Of a stretch of DNA of 64,000 nucleotides, positions 5,601-19,437 are shown one piece after another. The notes under the pieces are model-generated. The model did no database searches and was not told the DNA's origin. It worked only from the letters and a program-made list of their open reading frames with translations. The stretch is from a candidate division BRC1 bacterium HGW-BRC1-1 (lineage in GTDB: Bacteria; Sumerlaeota; Sumerlaeia; Sumerlaeales; Sumerlaeaceae): NCBI GenBank assembly GCA_002842095.1, contig PHCB01000012.1:1-64000 (forward strand), given 5' to 3'. The position numbers and the translations under genes were made by a program. The number at the start of each line of letters is the position of its first letter. Position 1 is the stretch's first letter.

Positions 5601-5728
5601 GACGACTCATCCGATTTCATTTCATTTGAAAGAGGAGCGCTGGTGTCTTGGGCGAGGCTGATATTAGCAGGGAAAGAACAAAAAACGACGAGCACAAAAA
5701 TACTACGCATGGCGGTGAATCGGGGCAT
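2642..5728 (-). CDS. Secreted N-acetylmuramoyl-L-alanine amidase with golvesin-like and FnIII domains
   Basis: Exported protein of about 1028 residues with a signal peptide (MPRFTAMRSIFVLVVFC..., ending near SLAQ). It looks like a zinc-dependent Amidase_3-type enzyme that cuts peptide stems from peptidoglycan: 'WPSHG' (His182), 'ALHTDAG' (His483) and 'LVELLSH' (Glu566) match the expected ligands and catalytic Glu. Between the first and second motif, residues about 275-400 form a beta-rich golvesin/CBM-like domain, so the catalytic fold is interrupted. An FnIII domain follows at about 612-705, and the last 320 residues resemble a GATase/ThuA-like fold. This architecture recalls Bacteroidetes proteins often mislabelled xanthan lyase. 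AAGGAA lies 9 bases before the ATG at 5728; a GTG at 5731 is the alternative. Confidence 0.8.
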   Translation of the reverse strand: MPRFTAMRSIFVLVVFCSFPANISLAQDTSAPLSNEMKSDESSALRNEAARFIRANSGSSERALFPPSTKVAAVDVTTTATVIDLSPEAVRRPWRESEVTDVLARVTSALSTATTQPVALAVAGRSLMDYVPPAYCVGAPVRAGKSPVTSLATVPLARNVSAASPVPSGGLDRRNIVVWPSHGVYFANQGTQRWEWQRPRMFTTVEDLLTMSIINPYLIPMLERAGATVFTCRERDPQLNEVVVDDGDSRSRREYTGFSTSGRGFRTTSTAGFKNGLAPFPDGLNPHREGTTRYALTTTGRATGSARWQAKIPADGDYAVYVSYASTPESATDAHYTIRHGGGATEFRVNQRMVGNTWVYLGTFSFSTRGDAVVELDNQSVDANATVSADAVKIGGGMGNVQRGEGVSGYPRYAEAARYWFQYAGIDPALAYAYGRHAGDEYTEDFMSRSEYANILTGAPTGPNHKPEFAGMGVPVDLSFALHTDAGISTGVVGTLAIFTSRGENKRDVFPNGRDRMMNRDLADLIQTQIVDDVRAKYSSDWTRRDLRDASYAEARRPNTPSVLVELLSHQNYDDMKFALDPRFRFDVARSIYKGMLRFLASEHGFTPIVMPLAPDHLQVRTIAPGRIRVRWKPVLDPLETSAAPDGYVVYARTATGGFDNGTLVKGAENTSLEMKVSDPDAVVSFRVTAWNAGGESLPGEILSVRTGEAGAPRALIVNAFDRLAPPTLVTGDREGADRSEDNGVGDGWNVGLVGSQYDFDRSHAWSGNDTPFTNDNPGHGASYAQMERGQEAGNTRDFALLHGESFAKLGWAFDSVSDESVSAGLVPLKDYPVVDWLLGEERTTPPPPARDATKGAADRMKPEFVCWPPEHQQAVRAYIEQGGALLANGSYVATDLIEPATASAADASFLKDVLCTRYMSGHGPRFALVESSETTSPFTRLEPFIANGAGTDGAYHAENPGVIEGLAKADPAVLRYREASMGAAVASDAGGGRRIVLAFPLECVSDTTGERTALLKGCLEYLAPKKP

Positions 5729-5843
5729 CACGAGATTTCCTTAATAAGTGCGATGCCAGTTTTTTGAATCCCGTCGAAACTAAAGACAATGCCTAAGTGG
5801 TGTGTTGCCGTCCGAGTATCAGGATTAACGATTATCCCATCCG

Positions 5844-8800
5844 CTATGGTGAAGCTACCCGCTGGGCCGAGCCCTTGAGAAACACCTGATAGGAAAACGC
5901 CACGGGTTTGTTTTCCTCGCCCGGTTTGATTTTGTATTCCATGAGCGCGTCACGTGACTGCCCCGCTGGAATTTCGTCGATCATGGTTTCGCCAAGCAGA
6001 GCCTCCGGGGTGGGTTGGGCGCTGGTATAAAACGCCACCTTCACACCTCGGGCTGCGCTTTCCCCCGTGTTGCTTACCGTGGCCACCATGCGCACGCGAC
6101 GCAGGCGACGGTCCTCGTCGTCGAAGGGCAGCGCGTGGATACCCAGCGGGGTCAGCTTGTGCTTCGTCCTCACGCGCACTTCACGCTGCACCATGTTGTC
6201 AGCCGGGCTGCGCTCGGCGTCATCCTCCACGGGCACGGCGCGAAATTCCACGCGACGCAAACCCGCGTTGCGGAAGGGGTCCCACCGCAGCGTAACGGTG
6301 GTGATTTCGCCCGCATCCAGCATGAAGAGTTTCCCACTGCCGGGCACGCGCGATTCCATCTTGATGGGAACCGTAGTGGTTATATCATACGCTTCGAGCC
6401 TCGCCCCACGACTGCGACGGGCACCGCTGTTGCGCACGGGCACATCAAAAACGATCGTCTCACCATCGGCCGGTGAAACCGGCTCCATGCGAATCCCCTC
6501 TCCCATCACCTGCAAGTCGGGCTGCACGTCACGCCCCACTTGCACAGACATGCGCGGCCATTCATCCGACCCCTCCACGCTGCTCAACGCATCAAGCCGC
6601 AAATGCAAAGTCCGTTGGGCCGGCACCGGCGACAACGTCAGGGGCAGCGTTATCCGCTGGGATTTGCCGGGGAACAACGGCTGAAGCGTTACCATGCTCT
6701 CCATCAGATTCACACCATCCTCACCCACCAGCGCCACCCGCATCTCCGGCGAGGTGAGGTCCGAAACATTGTGCAAGGTCACGCCGATTGCCAGGGTCGC
6801 CTGCGGGCCATCCTGCCTGCTGGCAATCGTCACAGATTCCGGATCGGGTTGCACCGTCTGCGCACCCGGCAGAAGTTTGCTGACCGCTGCCAGTTCAATA
6901 ACGCGGTTGCCCCGGGGTGATTGCAAAACCTCCTCAGCCTCGCCACGCGCACGCCACTTGAAGAGGAACCGGTTTACTCCGGCAAGAAGGCGCGGACGCA
7001 CTTCCACATCGCGCTCCTCGCCCGGCAGAAAATTGACCGCCGCCGATTCAACCACCGGCTCCTCACCCGCAGTTTTCAACAGGCTCAAAACGACCTCGCG
7101 TCGGGCCGAGGGCGCTGGGTTGCGGACCCTCACCACGATTACAGGGACATCGCCCTCGTTGAGCGGTTCCTCATCGGTGGCCGCCACGTTGGCCAGTCTC
7201 CACGACACGATTTCCATGTCGCGCGGAGCTGCAGTGACCGCCGGACGCTCCATCAGCAAATCCGCGGGGATGGCGTTGGGCGGCTTTCCATTGACGGGGT
7301 GCAGGTCCAGCGCCGGGTCTCCCAGCAGCAGGAACATCCGCACCAGGTCCGGTGGTCCGCCCAGTTCCAGATAGCGCAACGCGGCCAGCGTTGCAGCGGC
7401 GCCAACGGGTCTCGTTTCATCCGTGAGCAGTGCGTGGTTCAGTTGCGCGGCGAAAGTCTCATGGTTGCGCGTAAGGCCCGGCCCCGTGGGCACGAAGCAC
7501 CCCACCGCACCGCCGTTGGGCGTGCGCATGAAATCCTCGCTGATGCAGACGTTCCATCGCGGTTGGGGGTAATCGATGGCGCCACTGTTGCAGGTCATGT
7601 TCACGATGAACGGGAGGCGCGCGCCATTGGTTAGCATGAGGTTGTCCGAGTTCTCGCTGTCGCCCCCGAACCAGATGCGTTCGCTGCTCCAGATGTTGGG
7701 CGAGCCGTGACCGAAATAGGTCACCATGGCCACACCACCGTTTATCATGTCGCGGATGCGGCGCGTGGCTTCTGCGCTCACCTTCGCCTTGCTGCGTTCG
7801 GCCACTTCTGCCGGGAAATAGAAATTGTCGCTCCAGGGCTCGTCATCCAGAAAGATTCCGGTGCAGTCGAATTGAGGCGGCACGCTGTCGCGCATGACGC
7901 GCTCGACAGTCTCAGAAAAATCCGAGTGGTCGGCCACGAAACCCAGGCGTCCGCGCCATGGGTCGCTGGTAGGGGCACCGGCAAAGGCCAACTGTTTGGA
8001 AACCACCTGCTTGAGGTCGTCGACATTGTTCACCGAGAAGCGACCGAGCATCAAATCAGGCACCACGTCATCACCAAAAAGGGTGGCGTACCACTGGTCG
8101 CTGGCCCAGCGTTCGCCGGGATTTGCGGGGTCGAGAACCGTGTAACTGGGCACGTAATTGACGACATCGTTTCGGAACTCGTTGCGATAGGCGCTGGTCG
8201 CATCGCCCACGAGCAGCACATAGCTGGCTGCGGGCTCACTACTGGTGCCGCGCCAGTGGTCTGCGGCATGGCGCAGGAACGCCTTGATGGCCAGCGGGGT
8301 CTCCTCGCCCTCGGCAAACTGGTCGTATACATCGCGCACATCAACCACCGCAACGGCATGCCCCTGATCACGCCTGGCCTTCGCAAAGGGCTCGATGCCC
8401 GCGATAAAATCGCTGTGAGAAATGATGATGTAATCCGCATGCTGCTTCGCCTTGCGCAAGTCAGGCCGCCCGCGCACGGCCCCCAGCGCCACCGTGGAAG
8501 CGGCATCGGCACGGGCGAGGATCAGACGGGTCGACAAACGTGGACCGATAAAATCTGCCGTCGTCTGCCCCGGCTCACCCAACCACAGCAAGGCGGGTGA
8601 GGTGCTTGTCATGTCCAAAACCAGGCTTCGCCCACTGGTTGTGATTTCGGTAATTTGGTAATCCGTTTGGTCTTTGGAAGAAATCGAATTGATCGGTGGT
8701 GCAAACTCCAACTCGCCATCCACCGCACGATACGCCCGGGGGTAGTTTACCTCCAACTTGTCGAGGTGCACCTGCGTGCGAAAAACTCCCGCGCGCAACG

Positions 8801-10232
8801 GCTCGCCGCCACTCGTTTGGATGTCTCCCAATGCAATCGTCAACACGTTGCCGTGCTCTTTTAACAAGTCGCGCGGAATACGGAATTGATGTGTGGCGTC
8901 ATCCTCCGCCGACACTTCGAAGGTTTGAGGAGACGACCCGTTCACACGAAACCGCACCGGGGCCTTCGCACCTTTCAACCAGTTGTGAATGTACAACGTA
9001 AGCGTGGAGTCGGCGTCTTGCACGCCTTTCACAAGGCCCGGCATGTCGAACTGCACCTCCACCGGCGCGCTGGTTGTCAGTTCTTTCCACGCCCAGCGGA
9101 ATCCGAGGATCGACAGAAACTGATCGTTGCGGATGAGCACCTCGTGGTCTTCCTCCACGGTCAGCGAACTCTCAAACATGGCGCCTGGTTGTGGTTCGCT
9201 CCATCGCGAAAGCGCTTCCCCCGAGAGACCCCACCGCAGGGCGGAGCCGGTGGCGTCGACCACAAGCCAGTAGGGATTCACCAGCGTGAAGCGCGAATCA
9301 TTCCGACGCCCATAGAACAGGAACAGATCGTCATCCGCCCACCCCACCGCCGGCGTTGTGGATTCATCCCAGCCACTCGTTGCGCGAAGCAGCAACATCG
9401 GTTGCTGCTCACCGCGAAGAAACAATTTCACATGGGACGGATCAAGCGCAGCGGTGTCCACGCCGGCTTCGCGCAGATCGCGCCCCGAAATCTGCACAAG
9501 ACTGTTTGTCGTAACCGGCACCCGCATGACATGGGCCGCGCCGGGAAAACGGGCTGCACGGGAATCAAAATTTCCAAGACCCGGACCCGGCGCAATAGTC
9601 CCACGATCGACCACGGCGAACCGGTCGAGGTCTTCCGGATTGGCGACAAAGGCCTCCAGCACACGTCGCAAGGCTCCGGTCGATGCGGTGTCATCGACAG
9701 CCTCCAATTTAATGAAAGTTGGCAGCGACTGAAAAAAAAGTTCCACGCGGCCTTCCACTATCCTGTTCGCGGGTGCCTCACGCATGGCCAGCGGGATGAA
9801 AACCTGCGCGAGATGATGACCGCGCATCCACCCCAGCGACTTCATCTCCACCGCCACCGGCACACCCCCCTCCAGCGGCGTTATAGGCGGGGCTGCAAGA
9901 GCTGCATCTGCCATGGGCACCATGGCTGTCGGCGTAAGTTCTGCTTTCAAAAACCCGCCTGCAGGCACACACAGAGCCACCGTGGAGTAGCTCTCCTCCC
10001 CGGGCCGGTTGACATGAAAACGAAACGAGATGCGCCCCCCGGTTGACTCATAATCCGAGATGCTTGTGGAGGGTTGGGCAGCCAGATCAACCGACCGGCG
10101 GGCAGCGGCCGCGTGCCAGGCAGACTCCGACATATCACGCGGCAGGGAATCCAATGGATGGTCGCCGGCCGCACAAACTCCCGCCAAACCCGCCATGGCC
10201 ATCACGACAAACCGCCGCAACCGGATCATCAT
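5844..10232 (-). CDS. Secreted C25 (gingipain-type) cysteine peptidase with C-terminal CARDB-like domains
   Basis: Very large exported protein, 1462 residues, with signal peptide MMIRLRRFVVMAMAGLAG. The centre matches peptidase family C25: 'YFGHGSPN' gives the catalytic His842 and 'NMTCNSG' the catalytic Cys881, 39 residues apart and in the family's order; the preceding part contains 'LLVGDAT' and 'WYATLFGDD', typical of the gingipain-like subdomain. The first 550 or so residues resemble a pro-region plus beta domains. The C-terminal 430 residues look like repeated CARDB/Ig-like modules ('VSNTGESAARGVKVAFY'). Start chosen at 10232 because GGAGG lies 9 bases upstream; the open frame extends further without support. 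I see no obvious type IX sorting tail. The amidase gene follows after about 110 bases. Confidence 0.88.
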   Translation of the reverse strand: MMIRLRRFVVMAMAGLAGVCAAGDHPLDSLPRDMSESAWHAAAARRSVDLAAQPSTSISDYESTGGRISFRFHVNRPGEESYSTVALCVPAGGFLKAELTPTAMVPMADAALAAPPITPLEGGVPVAVEMKSLGWMRGHHLAQVFIPLAMREAPANRIVEGRVELFFQSLPTFIKLEAVDDTASTGALRRVLEAFVANPEDLDRFAVVDRGTIAPGPGLGNFDSRAARFPGAAHVMRVPVTTNSLVQISGRDLREAGVDTAALDPSHVKLFLRGEQQPMLLLRATSGWDESTTPAVGWADDDLFLFYGRRNDSRFTLVNPYWLVVDATGSALRWGLSGEALSRWSEPQPGAMFESSLTVEEDHEVLIRNDQFLSILGFRWAWKELTTSAPVEVQFDMPGLVKGVQDADSTLTLYIHNWLKGAKAPVRFRVNGSSPQTFEVSAEDDATHQFRIPRDLLKEHGNVLTIALGDIQTSGGEPLRAGVFRTQVHLDKLEVNYPRAYRAVDGELEFAPPINSISSKDQTDYQITEITTSGRSLVLDMTSTSPALLWLGEPGQTTADFIGPRLSTRLILARADAASTVALGAVRGRPDLRKAKQHADYIIISHSDFIAGIEPFAKARRDQGHAVAVVDVRDVYDQFAEGEETPLAIKAFLRHAADHWRGTSSEPAASYVLLVGDATSAYRNEFRNDVVNYVPSYTVLDPANPGERWASDQWYATLFGDDVVPDLMLGRFSVNNVDDLKQVVSKQLAFAGAPTSDPWRGRLGFVADHSDFSETVERVMRDSVPPQFDCTGIFLDDEPWSDNFYFPAEVAERSKAKVSAEATRRIRDMINGGVAMVTYFGHGSPNIWSSERIWFGGDSENSDNLMLTNGARLPFIVNMTCNSGAIDYPQPRWNVCISEDFMRTPNGGAVGCFVPTGPGLTRNHETFAAQLNHALLTDETRPVGAAATLAALRYLELGGPPDLVRMFLLLGDPALDLHPVNGKPPNAIPADLLMERPAVTAAPRDMEIVSWRLANVAATDEEPLNEGDVPVIVVRVRNPAPSARREVVLSLLKTAGEEPVVESAAVNFLPGEERDVEVRPRLLAGVNRFLFKWRARGEAEEVLQSPRGNRVIELAAVSKLLPGAQTVQPDPESVTIASRQDGPQATLAIGVTLHNVSDLTSPEMRVALVGEDGVNLMESMVTLQPLFPGKSQRITLPLTLSPVPAQRTLHLRLDALSSVEGSDEWPRMSVQVGRDVQPDLQVMGEGIRMEPVSPADGETIVFDVPVRNSGARRSRGARLEAYDITTTVPIKMESRVPGSGKLFMLDAGEITTVTLRWDPFRNAGLRRVEFRAVPVEDDAERSPADNMVQREVRVRTKHKLTPLGIHALPFDDEDRRLRRVRMVATVSNTGESAARGVKVAFYTSAQPTPEALLGETMIDEIPAGQSRDALMEYKIKPGEENKPVAFSYQVFLKGSAQRVASP

Positions 10233-10347
10233 TGTCCTGTTCCTCCGCATCAATATTGTGCCACATTCATGAAACAGCCAGACATGCCCCGTGCAAGTTC
10301 TCTTGCATTGCCCGTTGCCCATCTTTGAAACATAAACCTGCTAAAAC

Positions 10348-11508
10348 ATGAATACCTCTCCAGCCCTTCGCATTCTCCATCTCGTGGCCACATACCGTTG
10401 GACCGGTGTCGCCGAGCCCGCCACAAGCCTTGCGCTGCACCAGTTGCGCGCCAGCTGCATGGTGGAGATGGCTGCCCTGTGGGGATTTTCGTTTGAGCAA
10501 GTTCTCCAACAACGCGAAGTACCGATGGCCCGCGACCTCATCATCGAGCGACACATCAATCCCATCAGCGAATGGGCCGACATTCGGAAATTGCGCGTAT
10601 ATCTCGAAGAGCATCATTTCGACATCGTCCATTGTCATCTGATCCACGACCACTGGGTGGCCGCCATGGCCATCCGCGGCATGGCCCCCGACAAACGTCC
10701 CCGTCTCATTCGCACGGTTCATCGTTTTGAAAAGATGCGACGTGACCCGTTCCACCACATCCTCTTCGAGCGCATGACAGATCTGGTAATCACAGTGAGC
10801 GAGGCCCAGAAAAAAATTATTGAAACGGCCCTCCCTAAATTGAGTGAACGCCTGCGCGTTATCCATGGCGGCGTCGATCCCGAGCGGTATCGTCCCGACC
10901 TCGACGGCGCATCCGCAGTGCGTGCCGACATGGGCGAAAAGCCCGCGACCCAGGTGGCCGCCATCGTTGCGCACCTCGGCTACAAGCGCGGCCACCACTG
11001 GTTGCTGAAAGCCGCACCCGCAGCGATGGCCAAACTCCCCCACGCAACCATCTGGATAGTCGGCAGCGGCGAGATCGGCGAGGACCTGCGCAAAGAATTG
11101 CGCGACGAACGCTACCGGAAGCAGGTCGTAATGGCCGGTTATCGGAAGGATGACCTCCCTGAATTGTATGCTACCATCAATGTCGGATTACTTCTCGCAT
11201 TGGGCAGCGAAGGAAGCGCACGGGCCGCGCTGGAATGCATGGCCGCCGGACACCCCGTGATCGCAGTAGCCAAAGGCGCGCTTCTGGACACCATCACCCA
11301 CGGCCACGATGGTTTACTCGTGCCCGAAAACGATGTGGAAGCGCTGACCCGCGCGCTCATCGATTTGCTGGGCGACCCAGAGAAATCCAGGCAGATGGGC
11401 CTGAATGCCCGACAAACAATCCTCGCGCGTTTCACCGAGGAACACCGGGCCGAGAAGACCCTGCAGGCGTATCGCGAAATCCTCGCTGCTCCACGGGCGA
11501 AAAGTTGA
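10348..11508 (+). CDS. GT4-family glycosyltransferase
   Basis: Cytoplasmic or membrane-peripheral GT-B glycosyltransferase of 386 residues. The N-terminal Rossmann half begins 'RILHLVATYRWTGVAEP' and includes 'FDIVHCHLIHDHW'. The C-terminal donor-binding half carries the family E-x7-E element in 'EGSARAALECMAAGHPV' and ends with 'GHDGLLVPENDVEAL'. The donor and acceptor sugars cannot be read from sequence; lipid A, glycolipid or surface polysaccharide roles are all possible. It diverges from the C25 peptidase gene and lies 31 bases before the glycerophosphodiesterase gene, probably as one transcript. Confidence 0.88.
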   Translation: MNTSPALRILHLVATYRWTGVAEPATSLALHQLRASCMVEMAALWGFSFEQVLQQREVPMARDLIIERHINPISEWADIRKLRVYLEEHHFDIVHCHLIHDHWVAAMAIRGMAPDKRPRLIRTVHRFEKMRRDPFHHILFERMTDLVITVSEAQKKIIETALPKLSERLRVIHGGVDPERYRPDLDGASAVRADMGEKPATQVAAIVAHLGYKRGHHWLLKAAPAAMAKLPHATIWIVGSGEIGEDLRKELRDERYRKQVVMAGYRKDDLPELYATINVGLLLALGSEGSARAALECMAAGHPVIAVAKGALLDTITHGHDGLLVPENDVEALTRALIDLLGDPEKSRQMGLNARQTILARFTEEHRAEKTLQAYREILAAPRAKS

Positions 11509-12514: not shown

Positions 12515-14440
12515 TCAATCTTCCAGCTTCACCCCATCGGGAATAACCTCGTCCAATTCCACACGCGGGATGGCGCCTTCGCGCAGGACCTGCCATTTGC
12601 TGTCGAGCACCGACACCACCGTGGGGGCAGGCAGTTTGCCCGCTTGCCCGGCGTCGACGATCAAGCCTATTCCCACGGGATACGACTCCCCGACCTGCTG
12701 GGCTGTGACCGCCGGTTCGCCTGTTGTCAGGTCGGCGGTAACAGCCGCGAGGGGGCGCCCGATAAGGCTCAACAGCGCCAGCGCTAGATAGTTATCCGGG
12801 ATGCGTATACCCAGCGTGGAGTCGCGCGATACGCCGGGAAAACTCCGCGGGTGGCGCTCCATGACCACGGTCAGCGGACCCGGCCAGAACCGCTCGGTCA
12901 GGTGCATCAACTGCGGCGTGAAACCGCGCACCATGTGACGCAGTTGTTTGGTGGAGTGAACAAGCACCCCCACGGGGGCACCGGGGTCGCGATCCGTGAG
13001 CGTGAACAACCGCCGGATGGCATCGCGGTTCGTGGAGTCCACGGCCAGCATGTAACTCGTCTCGGTGGGCAGCGCCACGATGCGCCCCTCGAGCAGCGCG
13101 CCCATGGCCACCTCCAGCACATCGAGCTGCGGATTTTGTGCATCCGTCACAACCCGCTGCGGCGCGTCTTCGTCCAGCGGTTGCAGACGCTCCAGCGGCG
13201 GCTCAAGCTCCGTTGGCCGGGGCGGCACGGAAGTCGCCTCGACCTCCGCCGATGCACCCTCCGCCGTCAACCCGCCGCCCAGCTTTTCGCGCAACATCGC
13301 CTCGGTGCGTGTGAGCTGTTCCTCGTCGTATTCCGTCGGGGGTTCCGGCTGGTTCGAAACCGGCTCGGCTTCCTCCGCCTCGTGGATTTCATCCGGCAAA
13401 CGGCCATCGCGCACCAATGCCTCCAGTGCATGGGCCTGAATCCCATGAGCACTTAAAAGCGCCCCACCGCGATCGTCCACTGCGCGCAACATCGATGACA
13501 GCAAATCCGTCGTGGTCACCCATCGGCGTCCTGCGTTTCGTGCCGAATCCTTCGCGCGTTTCAACATTTCCTCGGCCCCATCGCCCAATGCCAGAACGCC
13601 ACCGCTGGAGGTTCGACGCGCGGGCAACATGCGCTCCACCTGTTCCAGCATCAACGCCGGCTTCACCCCCATTTCGCGGAGTGCCGTATAAGCGGCCGTG
13701 ATCGGGGATTTCAAAATTCCGCCCAGAAAATGGATCGCACCTACTTCCATGCCCTCGCGCGATTGTGCCAACTCTCGCGCCGCGCCGAACACCGCCTGCG
13801 CCGAGGGGGTGTAGCGCAGTGACTGCGGGAGTGTCGGTTTTTGCTCGTGCGCCGCCGAGTTTTTATCTTTCTCCGCAGTCGCACCACTCCCCTTGCGGGA
13901 GCGCTTCCGCGACGCTGAGTTCTGCGCAAACTCGCGCTCAAGACGCGCAAGTTCGGCCATGTCGGCGTCGTCATTACTTGCCGATTCTTTGGGCACCGAC
14001 ACCTTAATTTCTTTCCGTGACGTCGGGCTTTTTTTTGCTGCGGAAGGTTCAACTTCTCGCCCGTCCTCCGCACCCATCTGCGCACCCCGGGCCTTGCGCC
14101 ATGCAACCAGACGGTCGGCAAGATCCGGATCGGCCATTGCGAGAATTCGCAACGCCCGCATCGCAGCGACTTCCACCGCAGCATCCGCCTCCACCACCGG
14201 AGCAGCCGAGAACGCTTCCGCCATGACGGCGGCCACGGGCGATGCACCCACCGTCACAATCACTTTTGCGCCGCTCTGTTCCAGCTCGCGCAACCGCGCT
14301 CGCCAGGCCTCCGGTGGAAAGAGCGCGTTGACCACCGCTGTTTCGTGCCCCACCTGCATCGAATTCACCAATTCCAAAGCAGTCTTCAAAGAGGCCGTTG
14401 CGCCCCCCTCAGCCATCAGGAATCCTATTTTCAATTTCAT
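12515..14440 (-). CDS. Three-part fusion: PurE-like, double Clp_N-like and YrdC/Sua5-like domains
   Basis: A 641-residue protein I cannot match to a known full-length architecture. Residues 1-120 resemble the C-terminal part of AIR carboxylase PurE ('ALRILAMADPDLADRLVAWR') but lack its GSxSD phosphate motif. A charged Ser/Lys linker follows to about 205. Residues 208-272 and 284-345 look like two Clp_N repeats ('YTPSAQAVFGAAREL', 'HFLGGILKS'). After an acidic linker, residues 437-641 form a YrdC/Sua5 (threonylcarbamoyl-AMP synthase) domain with 'ALPTETSYML', 'FWPGPLT' and 'LGIRIPDN'. At the conserved K-x-R and S-x-N positions it has T482-D-R484 and T568-A-D570, so normal activity for tRNA t6A is doubtful. 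Start at 14440 from the PurE-like beginning; ribosome binding site weak. It stands alone between terminators and rpoD. Confidence 0.8.
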   Translation of the reverse strand: MKLKIGFLMAEGGATASLKTALELVNSMQVGHETAVVNALFPPEAWRARLRELEQSGAKVIVTVGASPVAAVMAEAFSAAPVVEADAAVEVAAMRALRILAMADPDLADRLVAWRKARGAQMGAEDGREVEPSAAKKSPTSRKEIKVSVPKESASNDDADMAELARLEREFAQNSASRKRSRKGSGATAEKDKNSAAHEQKPTLPQSLRYTPSAQAVFGAARELAQSREGMEVGAIHFLGGILKSPITAAYTALREMGVKPALMLEQVERMLPARRTSSGGVLALGDGAEEMLKRAKDSARNAGRRWVTTTDLLSSMLRAVDDRGGALLSAHGIQAHALEALVRDGRLPDEIHEAEEAEPVSNQPEPPTEYDEEQLTRTEAMLREKLGGGLTAEGASAEVEATSVPPRPTELEPPLERLQPLDEDAPQRVVTDAQNPQLDVLEVAMGALLEGRIVALPTETSYMLAVDSTNRDAIRRLFTLTDRDPGAPVGVLVHSTKQLRHMVRGFTPQLMHLTERFWPGPLTVVMERHPRSFPGVSRDSTLGIRIPDNYLALALLSLIGRPLAAVTADLTTGEPAVTAQQVGESYPVGIGLIVDAGQAGKLPAPTVVSVLDSKWQVLREGAIPRVELDEVIPDGVKLED

Positions 14441-14937: not shown

Positions 14938-16734
<1,797 letters not shown>

Positions 16735-16917: not shown

Positions 16918-19437
16918 TTACTTGTTGAATTCGTCCTCGACTTCGTTCTTCCAGGGACGCTCGGCGGGCTCAGTCGACGGCCGCTCATTGCGGTCACCGG
17001 ACAGGATGCGGGGCGTATCGCCCGAAGCCTGATCGCCAGAATGATCCGAGACTTCAGGGGCCGGGCTGGGATTCGGTGAAGCTTCGTTGGAAACGCCGGG
17101 CTCACCGCCACGGTCGCTGCCACTACGGCCTCCACGGTCGCTTCTCTCGCCGCCACGACCACCACGGTCGCTACCGCCGCCACGGGAGCCGCCACGGCCA
17201 CCACGATCGCCGCCACGGCCACCACGATCACCACCACGATCACGGTCGCGGTCACGTCCACCACGTCCACCGCGATCACCACGGTCGCCCTGGTCACTGC
17301 TGCCGCCGCCGCCTTCTTCCTCGCCCTGCTTCGTGGCGGGGTACATGGCCTGCTTGCGCGACAACCGGATTTTGCCCTTCTCGTCGATGCCGATGACTTT
17401 CACCATCAATTCGTCGCCGAGGCGGCAAACGTCTTCCACGCGCTCCACACGGCGGGGCTCAAGCTCGCTGATGTGCACGAGGCCGTCCCTGCCCGGGAGA
17501 ATCTCCACGAAGGCACCGAACTCGGCAATGCGTGTAACCTTGCCCGTGTAAATGGCGCCCATGTCGGCTTCCGCCGTCAGGTCCTGAATCCACTTGATGG
17601 CGCGGGCCATGGCTTCGCCGTCGGCTGAGGCGATAAACACCTGACCGTTGTCGTTGATGTCAATCTTCGCGCCGGTCTTGGCCACGATCTCCTTGATGAC
17701 CTTGCCGCCCGAACCGATGACGTCTTTGATCTTCTCGGGGTTGATGGTGATCATCTCGATGCGCGGTGCATAGGGCTTCAGTTCCGAGCGGGACTCCGGC
17801 AGCGCCTCGAGCATCTTACCGAGAATATGCTGACGGCCTTCCTTGGCCTGATGCAGAGCCTTTTCCATAATCTCGAAGGTGATGCCCTCGATCTTGATGT
17901 CCATCTGAAGGGCCGTGATACCGTCCTTCGTGCCGGCCACCTTGAAGTCCATGTCGCCGAGGTGATCTTCGAGGCCCATGATGTCGCTCAACACCGCGAA
18001 CTTCTCACCCTCGAGGATGAGGCCCATGGCGATGCCCGCAACGGGAGCCTTGATCGGCACGCCGCCGTCCATAAGCGCCAGGGTGCCACTGCAAACGCTG
18101 GCCATGGAGCTGGAACCGTTGGACTCCATGATCTCGCTAACGAGGCGGATCGTGTAGGGGAACGTTTCGTGATCAGGAATGATGGGCTTGATGGACCGCT
18201 GCGCCAAATGGCCATGGCCAATCTCGCGACGGCCGGGGCCGCTGATGCGGCGGCACTCGCCCACGCTGAACGACGGGAAGTTGTAGTGCAGGTAGAAGTT
18301 ACGCTCGTCGGTCGATTCCAGATAGTCGACGTTCTGCGTATCGTCGCCGGTGCCAAGCGTCAGCACACCCAGCGATTGGGTTTGGCCGCGCGTGAACAAC
18401 GACGAACCGTGGACGCGGGGCAGAACGCTGGTCTCGATCCAGATGGGGCGAACTTCCGTCAGCTTGCGGCCATCGGCGCGCACGCCCTTCTCCAGAACGC
18501 TCTCGCGCATGCTCTGGGAGTATTCGTCCTCCCACACCTTCTTAACCACGTCTGCGGCATCCGGATATGCGTCCGTCAGCGCAGCGGTGATTTCCGCACG
18601 CGCTGTGTCCAGAGCGGTTTGACGCTCCTGCTTATCGAACAAATCGTTGATCTTCGCGAAGTGGGGCTTGGCCAGATCGCGAATCTTGGAGACCAGCTCT
18701 TCGTTGCGCTCGGGCGCGACGAAGACGAACTTCTCCTTGCCCACCTTCTCACGGAGTTCTTCTTGCAGCTTGCAGATTTTCGCAACGGCTTCGTGGCCGA
18801 AACGCAACGCCGCGAGCATCTGCTCTTCGGTCAGCATATCGGCGCCACTCTCCACCATGGTGATGGCCTTCTGCGTGCCCGCCACCACCAACTCCAGCTT
18901 GCTGGTTTCGAGCTGATCGGTCGTGGGGTTGAGAATGTAATCGGTGCCGTCGAAGCCGACGCGCACGCCCGCCACCGGTGTGTTGAAGGGGATGTCAGAA
19001 ATATAAAGCGCCGTGCTGGCTGCACACAGGGCCACGATGTCGCCCGAGTACTTGCCGTCGTAAGACAGCACGTTGATGTAAACCTGAACCTCCTGCTTGA
19101 ACCCTTTGGGGAAGAGCGGACGCAGGGGGCGATCGATGAGGCGGGCGCGAAGGATTTCGTCCTCCGTGGGGCGACCTTCACGCTTGAAATAGCCACCGGG
19201 AATGCGGCCAGCCGCGTAAAGCTTCTCGCGGAAATCAACCGTCAGCGGGAAAAAGTCCAGCGGCTCGGGGCGCGGCCCCGCCATCACTACGGAGGCGAGA
19301 ACAACGGTGCCTCCCATTTGGGCCCATACGGAGCCATTCGCCTGGCGGGCCACTTTGCCCGTGCTCAGGATTAATTCTTCGGCGCCGAATGAGGCGCGCA
19401 CCTCGGTTGCTTGGGGACTGTTGTCTGTCATGACCAC
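16918..19437 (-). CDS. pnp: Polyribonucleotide nucleotidyltransferase with RGG-rich tail
   Basis: PNPase, the phosphorolytic 3'-5' exoribonuclease, about 839 residues. Two RNase PH domains come first ('[20 protein letters not shown]', later '[20 protein letters not shown]' and '[13 protein letters not shown]'), then KH ('[17 protein letters not shown]') and S1 ('[18 protein letters not shown]'). The last 135 residues are unusual: many RGG/DRGG repeats (about 17080-17320) followed by an acidic-polar end, likely disordered and RNA-binding. GTG at 19437 has AAGGA five bases upstream; ATG at 19431 is the alternative. rpsO, which precedes pnp in many bacteria, is missing. Upstream is a long gap with an 11-bp repeat. 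Confidence 0.96.

Follow-up and report, generated by a model that had tools for sequence, protein, structure and literature searches.

TsaC/Sua5 enzymes are near-universal, and their evolution is usually framed as TsaC versus Sua5. In the window analyzed here (the whole stretch of 64,000 nucleotides from Sumerlaeota bacterium HGW-BRC1-1), a 641-residue open reading frame (ORF) joins a YrdC domain of this type to segments resembling the purine-synthesis enzyme PurE and the N-terminal domain of the protein-unfolding Clp machines. The question raised by this locus is whether its product is still a threonylcarbamoyl-AMP (TC-AMP) synthase contributing to t6A formation and, if not, what the protein has become.

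Domain architecture of the ORF

The ORF (12515-14440, minus strand) is one unbroken frame from an ATG at 14440 to a stop at 12515, with codon-position GC typical of a normal gene, and lies in a genome (coded G000) of 3,768,617 bases in 34 contigs. From the N-terminus, the PurE remnant-Clp_N-YrdC fusion comprises a PurE (AIRC) remnant (residues 1-118; 14087-14440), a charged, low-complexity linker (residues 119-203; 13832-14086), a ClpC-type N-domain (residues 204-356; 13373-13831), an acidic, proline-rich linker (residues 357-429; 13154-13372), and a YrdC (TsaC-like) domain (residues 430-635; 12536-13153), all on the minus strand. Frameshift, chimera or assembly artefact was ruled out as the origin of this ORF because the architecture recurs in its relatives of family f1. 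The original prediction had described three unrelated folds in one frame; the three domains were indeed found, whereas the protein is not a one-off, as it belongs to a class-wide PurE-TsaC fusion to which Clp_N was added in one family.

The N-terminal segment was matched by the Pfam AIRC/PurE model at residues 6-83 with an E-value of 2.3e-4, which alone is below the Pfam cut-off, and profile-profile alignment of the N-termini of six f1 relatives with canonical PurE gave a probability of 97% (E 8e-11). It had been taken for a PurE C-terminus; the same alignment instead identifies the first (N-terminal/core) half and the final helix of the fold, with the middle deleted. The GSxSD motif was correctly predicted to be missing, and a motif check revealed that SAHR is missing as well. 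Thus, the window copy resembles PurE (N5-CAIR mutase; PF00731) by profile and by position, the fusions of relatives holding canonical PurE at the same place, and differs from it in lacking GSxSD, the catalytic His and the mid-domain.

For the middle region, Pfam yielded a weak single-sequence Clp_N match (residues 221-272, E 0.06) and NCBIfam a ClpB model match (residues 211-356, E 3.9e-8). A profile of the middle regions of seven sequences matched solved ClpC N-domains (B. subtilis ClpC) with an E-value of 2e-16 over profile positions 6-143. This match spans both of the Clp_N-type repeats that had been proposed at residues 208-272 (13625-13819, minus strand) and 284-345 (13406-13591, minus strand), and Pfam Clp_N was also matched by six of the seven f1 members (best E 6.7e-16). 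Compared with proteins of the same genomes, the fusion Clp_N scored higher against ClpC (53-76 bits) than against ClpB (32-46 bits). AlphaFold, run on residues 202-360 alone in single-sequence mode, produced a poor model (pLDDT 52), for which Foldseek returned no match under E 0.8 and a list mixing globins with ClpC N-domains; the Clp_N fold assignment stands on the sequence profiles. A Clp_N tree retained only 4/7 fusion rows, with one branch of length 8, and was dropped in favor of profile scores.

The fusion therefore shares both repeats with the ClpC N-terminal domain (PF02861 pair) and differs from ClpC in having no AAA+ modules and in having most of its phosphoarginine (pArg)-binding glutamates replaced. 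In ClpC, E32 and E106 are the two glutamates that bind phosphoarginine (PMC12583610); the corresponding sites are mostly hydrophobic in the fusion profile, while the genome's own ClpC retains GxEH at both, which makes recognition of pArg-marked clients by the fusion Clp_N unlikely. Of the earlier suggestion of a protein-quality sensor acting through Clp_N, the domain itself is real, while client recognition through pArg is improbable. Mycobacterial ClpC2 (PMC10030653) likewise has an N-domain of the ClpC type and no AAA+ domains; unlike the fusion, it has neither PurE nor YrdC, and it binds cyclomarin and, for self-repression, DNA.

The YrdC active site and separate Sua5 genes

The YrdC domain was recognized with high significance (Pfam, residues 448-622, E 3.9e-37), and the protein passes the TIGR00057 cut-off (132 versus 123 bits). 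Seven residues of P. abyssi Sua5 served as the reference for scoring the active site of every copy. According to PMC10321239, K56, R58, S143 and N145 of this enzyme bind ATP and T33, S181 and R195 bind threonine, and mutants of yeast Sua5 show that the equivalents of K56, S143, N145 and S181 are required (Wan et al. 2013, via PMC10321239). Alignment placed T482-D-R484 (12989-12997, minus strand) in the K-x-R columns and T568-A-D570 (12731-12739, minus strand) in the S-x-N columns of the ATP site, as had been proposed. The window copy keeps R484 of KxR and has substitutions at K56, S143, N145 and S181. Its threonine site retains T459 and R620 (the equivalents of T33 and R195) and has P606 in place of S181, and its PTxTVYG loop reads PTETSYM. 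The scaffold residues W519-P-G, R546 and R562-P are invariant while the pocket residues are lost. The protein is like TsaC/Sua5 (PF01300, TIGR00057) in its whole-domain YrdC fold and in that the orthologous locus is motif-intact in two relatives (G001 and G004); it is unlike them in lacking the KxR/SxN tetrad, S181 and a SUA5 domain, and in its fusion to a PurE remnant and Clp_N. Since it is the ATP-binding residues that were lost, the nucleotide sensor suggested earlier is improbable.

YrdC also occurs in other architectures and roles, such as HypF/TobZ, where it is fused to a Kae1-like domain, and YciO, a stand-alone TsaC paralogue. Membership of the window protein in either group was rejected, as the fusion YrdCs form a clade of their own apart from YciO-like rows and have no Kae1 domain. 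A separate 210-residue YrdC paralogue in another genome (G008, contig C107, about 201-833) has KGV/SAS for KxR/SxN and groups with the short YrdC of G040, far from TsaC; it is YciO-like.

Three YrdC genes were found in HGW-BRC1-1: a canonical Sua5, a HypF and the window fusion. The Sua5 (contig C2, 347 residues) has 7/7 active-site residues, which provides the second canonical enzyme that the original prediction had proposed searching for. Separate purE and purK genes lie side by side on contig C30, and TsaD is also present. Across the class, TsaD was detected above cut-off in 33/39 genomes, and a source of TC-AMP is therefore needed in these organisms. Among the 16 genomes in which the tetrad is intact (7/7; the set includes G009 and G011, which belong to the clade but in which no fused PurE was detected), none has a separate Sua5. 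A separate canonical Sua5 is present in 12 of the 14 genomes with a degenerate tetrad; the two exceptions (G006 and G036) are assemblies that are 66% and 80% complete. The association between tetrad state and Sua5 gives a Fisher p of 1e-6 for 30 genomes that are related to each other. When the motif columns are excluded from tree building, each of the two traits switches twice and the branches coincide; with only two independent transitions, a phylogenetically corrected test is unable to reach significance. The proposal that the protein may no longer make t6A thus receives good support at the sequence level, from the genome's own canonical Sua5 and from the class-wide pairing of tetrad loss with a separate Sua5.

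It could be argued that the window protein is still a TC-AMP synthase that works through non-canonical residues, with Sua5 as a redundant second enzyme. The YrdC fold, R484 and the equivalents of T33 and R195 are kept; however, the four substituted positions are those described as required in the yeast enzyme, and tetrad loss tracks the presence of Sua5. We consider this explanation very improbable. For comparison, the in vitro activity of YciO is very weak.

The PurE-TsaC fusion family in Sumerlaeota

A search of 60 relatives detected long frames ending in YrdC throughout the class, and their N-termini proved to be PurE domains. The survey of the architecture across related genomes that had been proposed thus finds the PurE-YrdC fusion to be class-wide, with Clp_N, between PurE and YrdC, restricted to f1 members. 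The fusion YrdCs, including that of the window, form one clade (SH-aLRT 82). The outgroup of this tree consisted of general TsaC/Sua5 genes from a wider scan of genome contigs, which yielded such genes only and no member of the fusion family. In six genomes (G010, G012, G019, G024, G028 and G030), the fused PurE carries both GSxSD and SAHR and is the sole PurE apart from putative LarB-like proteins, so labelled by their length; the fused YrdC is motif-intact and is the sole one apart from long HypF-like frames. It appears that the PurE-TsaC fusion supplies both functions in several Sumerlaeota lineages. No purK was found above cut-off in these six genomes, and the second PurE histidine is absent in G019, G028 and G030, so that these fused proteins may carboxylate directly, in the manner of class II PurE. 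In one of the six, G012, a TsaD match was also observed inside a 1063-residue open frame (contig C199, about 5622-6716), a possible TsaD fusion.

Outside the class, no PurE-YrdC fusion was present among the matches listed (193 genomes). No paper on a PurE-TsaC fusion was found in the literature library searched. Adjacent purE and tsaC genes on the same strand were detected in G039, G044, G058, G070, G123 and G192, overlapping in three of them; these genomes belong to other phyla and to another class of the same phylum. An adjacent purE-tsaC pair is the simplest and probable origin of the fusion.

Within f1, the locus can be traced by synteny. The divergent neighbor of the fusion is an rpoD-like sigma factor gene (14938-16734, plus strand), and the fusion adjoins the same rpoD in G000, G001, G002, G004 and G005. 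The window gene therefore occupies the locus that encodes a motif-intact protein in G004 (3,289,105 bases, one contig; probably Ca. Sumerlaea chitinivorans BY40, PMC8092238). A glycosyltransferase-like gene (10348-11508, plus strand) is syntenic in G001, G004 and G007. The locus holds no operon partner, the gene standing alone between divergent neighbors. Nearby, a 1492-residue protein (5844-10322, minus strand), presumably a C25 (gingipain-type) peptidase as judged by reading its sequence, keeps its position close to the fusion in several f1 genomes, and a PNPase-like protein of 839 residues (16918-19437, minus strand) carries a long RG/RGG-rich low-complexity tail past its S1 region. In G003, no fusion is detectable, though rpoD and Sua5 are present; a 358-residue Clp_N frame in that genome was considered as a fusion remnant and rejected, being a ClpC truncated at a contig end.

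Clp_N occurs together with an intact YrdC in three f1 fusions (G001, G004 and G007) and with a degenerate one in four (that of the window, G002, G005 and G006). Most simply, the Clp_N insertion would therefore be older than the loss of activity.

Selection, erosion and the proposed role

Degenerate fusions also occur in f7/f13, where three same-genus pairs gave whole-protein dN/dS values of 0.16, 0.22 and 0.07 and YrdC-domain values of 0.056, 0.16 and 0.08; the active pair G016/G022 gave 0.15 and 0.067, respectively. These estimates cover f7/f13 and the active pair, as f1 offers no close pair of degenerate copies and its synonymous sites are saturated. In f7/f13, the T33/S181/R195 set is kept at 30/30 positions and the PTxTVYG loop is nearly complete, while S143 is replaced by N in 10/10 copies and N145 is lost in 10/10. 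With purifying selection acting and the threonine site kept while the ATP site is lost, these copies look repurposed. One form of repurposing would be a threonine-responsive regulator that binds threonine without adenylation and thereby alters the Clp_N or PurE-like part. The retained threonine residues, the uniform changes at S143 and N145, and the YrdC dN/dS of 0.06-0.16 agree with it; it fits f7/f13 best, however, and the window protein less, given P606 at S181, the PTETSYM loop and a gene without an operon partner. We regard such a regulator as unlikely.

The f1 copies show another pattern, in which the whole pocket, ATP and threonine sites alike, is eroding faster than in f7/f13. The branches of degenerate f1 copies measure 0.64-2.15, versus 0.13-0.33, and their pockets differ per genome (TDR/TAD, LGL/RMR, AGR/SAR and RAQ/DSG). 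The gene is absent from at least one relative (G003), and constraint on the window copy is probably weaker than on its active counterparts. The main rival explanation goes further and holds that the f1 fusion became a functionless relic once Sua5 and purEK were present and is drifting to loss. The long branches of all four degenerate copies, the different loss of the pocket in each genome, the decay of the threonine site (S181 kept in 1/4) and the apparent gene loss in G003 all agree with decay. On the other hand, four genera still have uninterrupted frames of some 600-660 codons, the scaffold residues of YrdC are retained along with both Clp_N repeats, and the homologous degenerate fusions of f7/f13 are clearly under selection. 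A decaying relic is thus a serious possibility, if a less than probable one.

We favor, with a probability of roughly 0.7, the reading that the ORF encodes a formerly bifunctional PurE-TsaC protein whose chemistry has moved to Sua5 and PurEK and which most likely now acts as a non-catalytic binding protein. The ancestor would have been a bifunctional enzyme of Sumerlaeota with the order PurE-linker-YrdC. In f1, a ClpC-type N-domain lies within the linker and the PurE part is eroded, and the sub-lineage with a separate canonical Sua5 and purE-purK has lost the YrdC tetrad as well. The window protein would then make neither TC-AMP nor CAIR, both being supplied by Sua5 and PurEK, and its YrdC scaffold may present Clp_N to partner proteins, possibly those of the Clp system. 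A more specific proposal is that the degenerate fusions arose by two independent pseudoenzyme conversions as non-catalytic regulators, forming a ligand-responsive adaptor that links tRNA-modification or amino-acid status to Clp proteolysis. Such an adaptor would consist of a dead TsaC pocket and a dead PurE, with a Clp N-domain added in f1, in lineages that have a separate Sua5; we hold this proposal to be doubtful.

It is worth noting that automatic annotation, with TIGR00057 above its cut-off, would label the window protein as an active t6A enzyme. In lineages with a separate Sua5, the fusion seems to have turned twice into a pseudoenzyme, and may thus provide a natural test of what a tRNA-modification enzyme is retained for after other proteins have taken over its chemistry.
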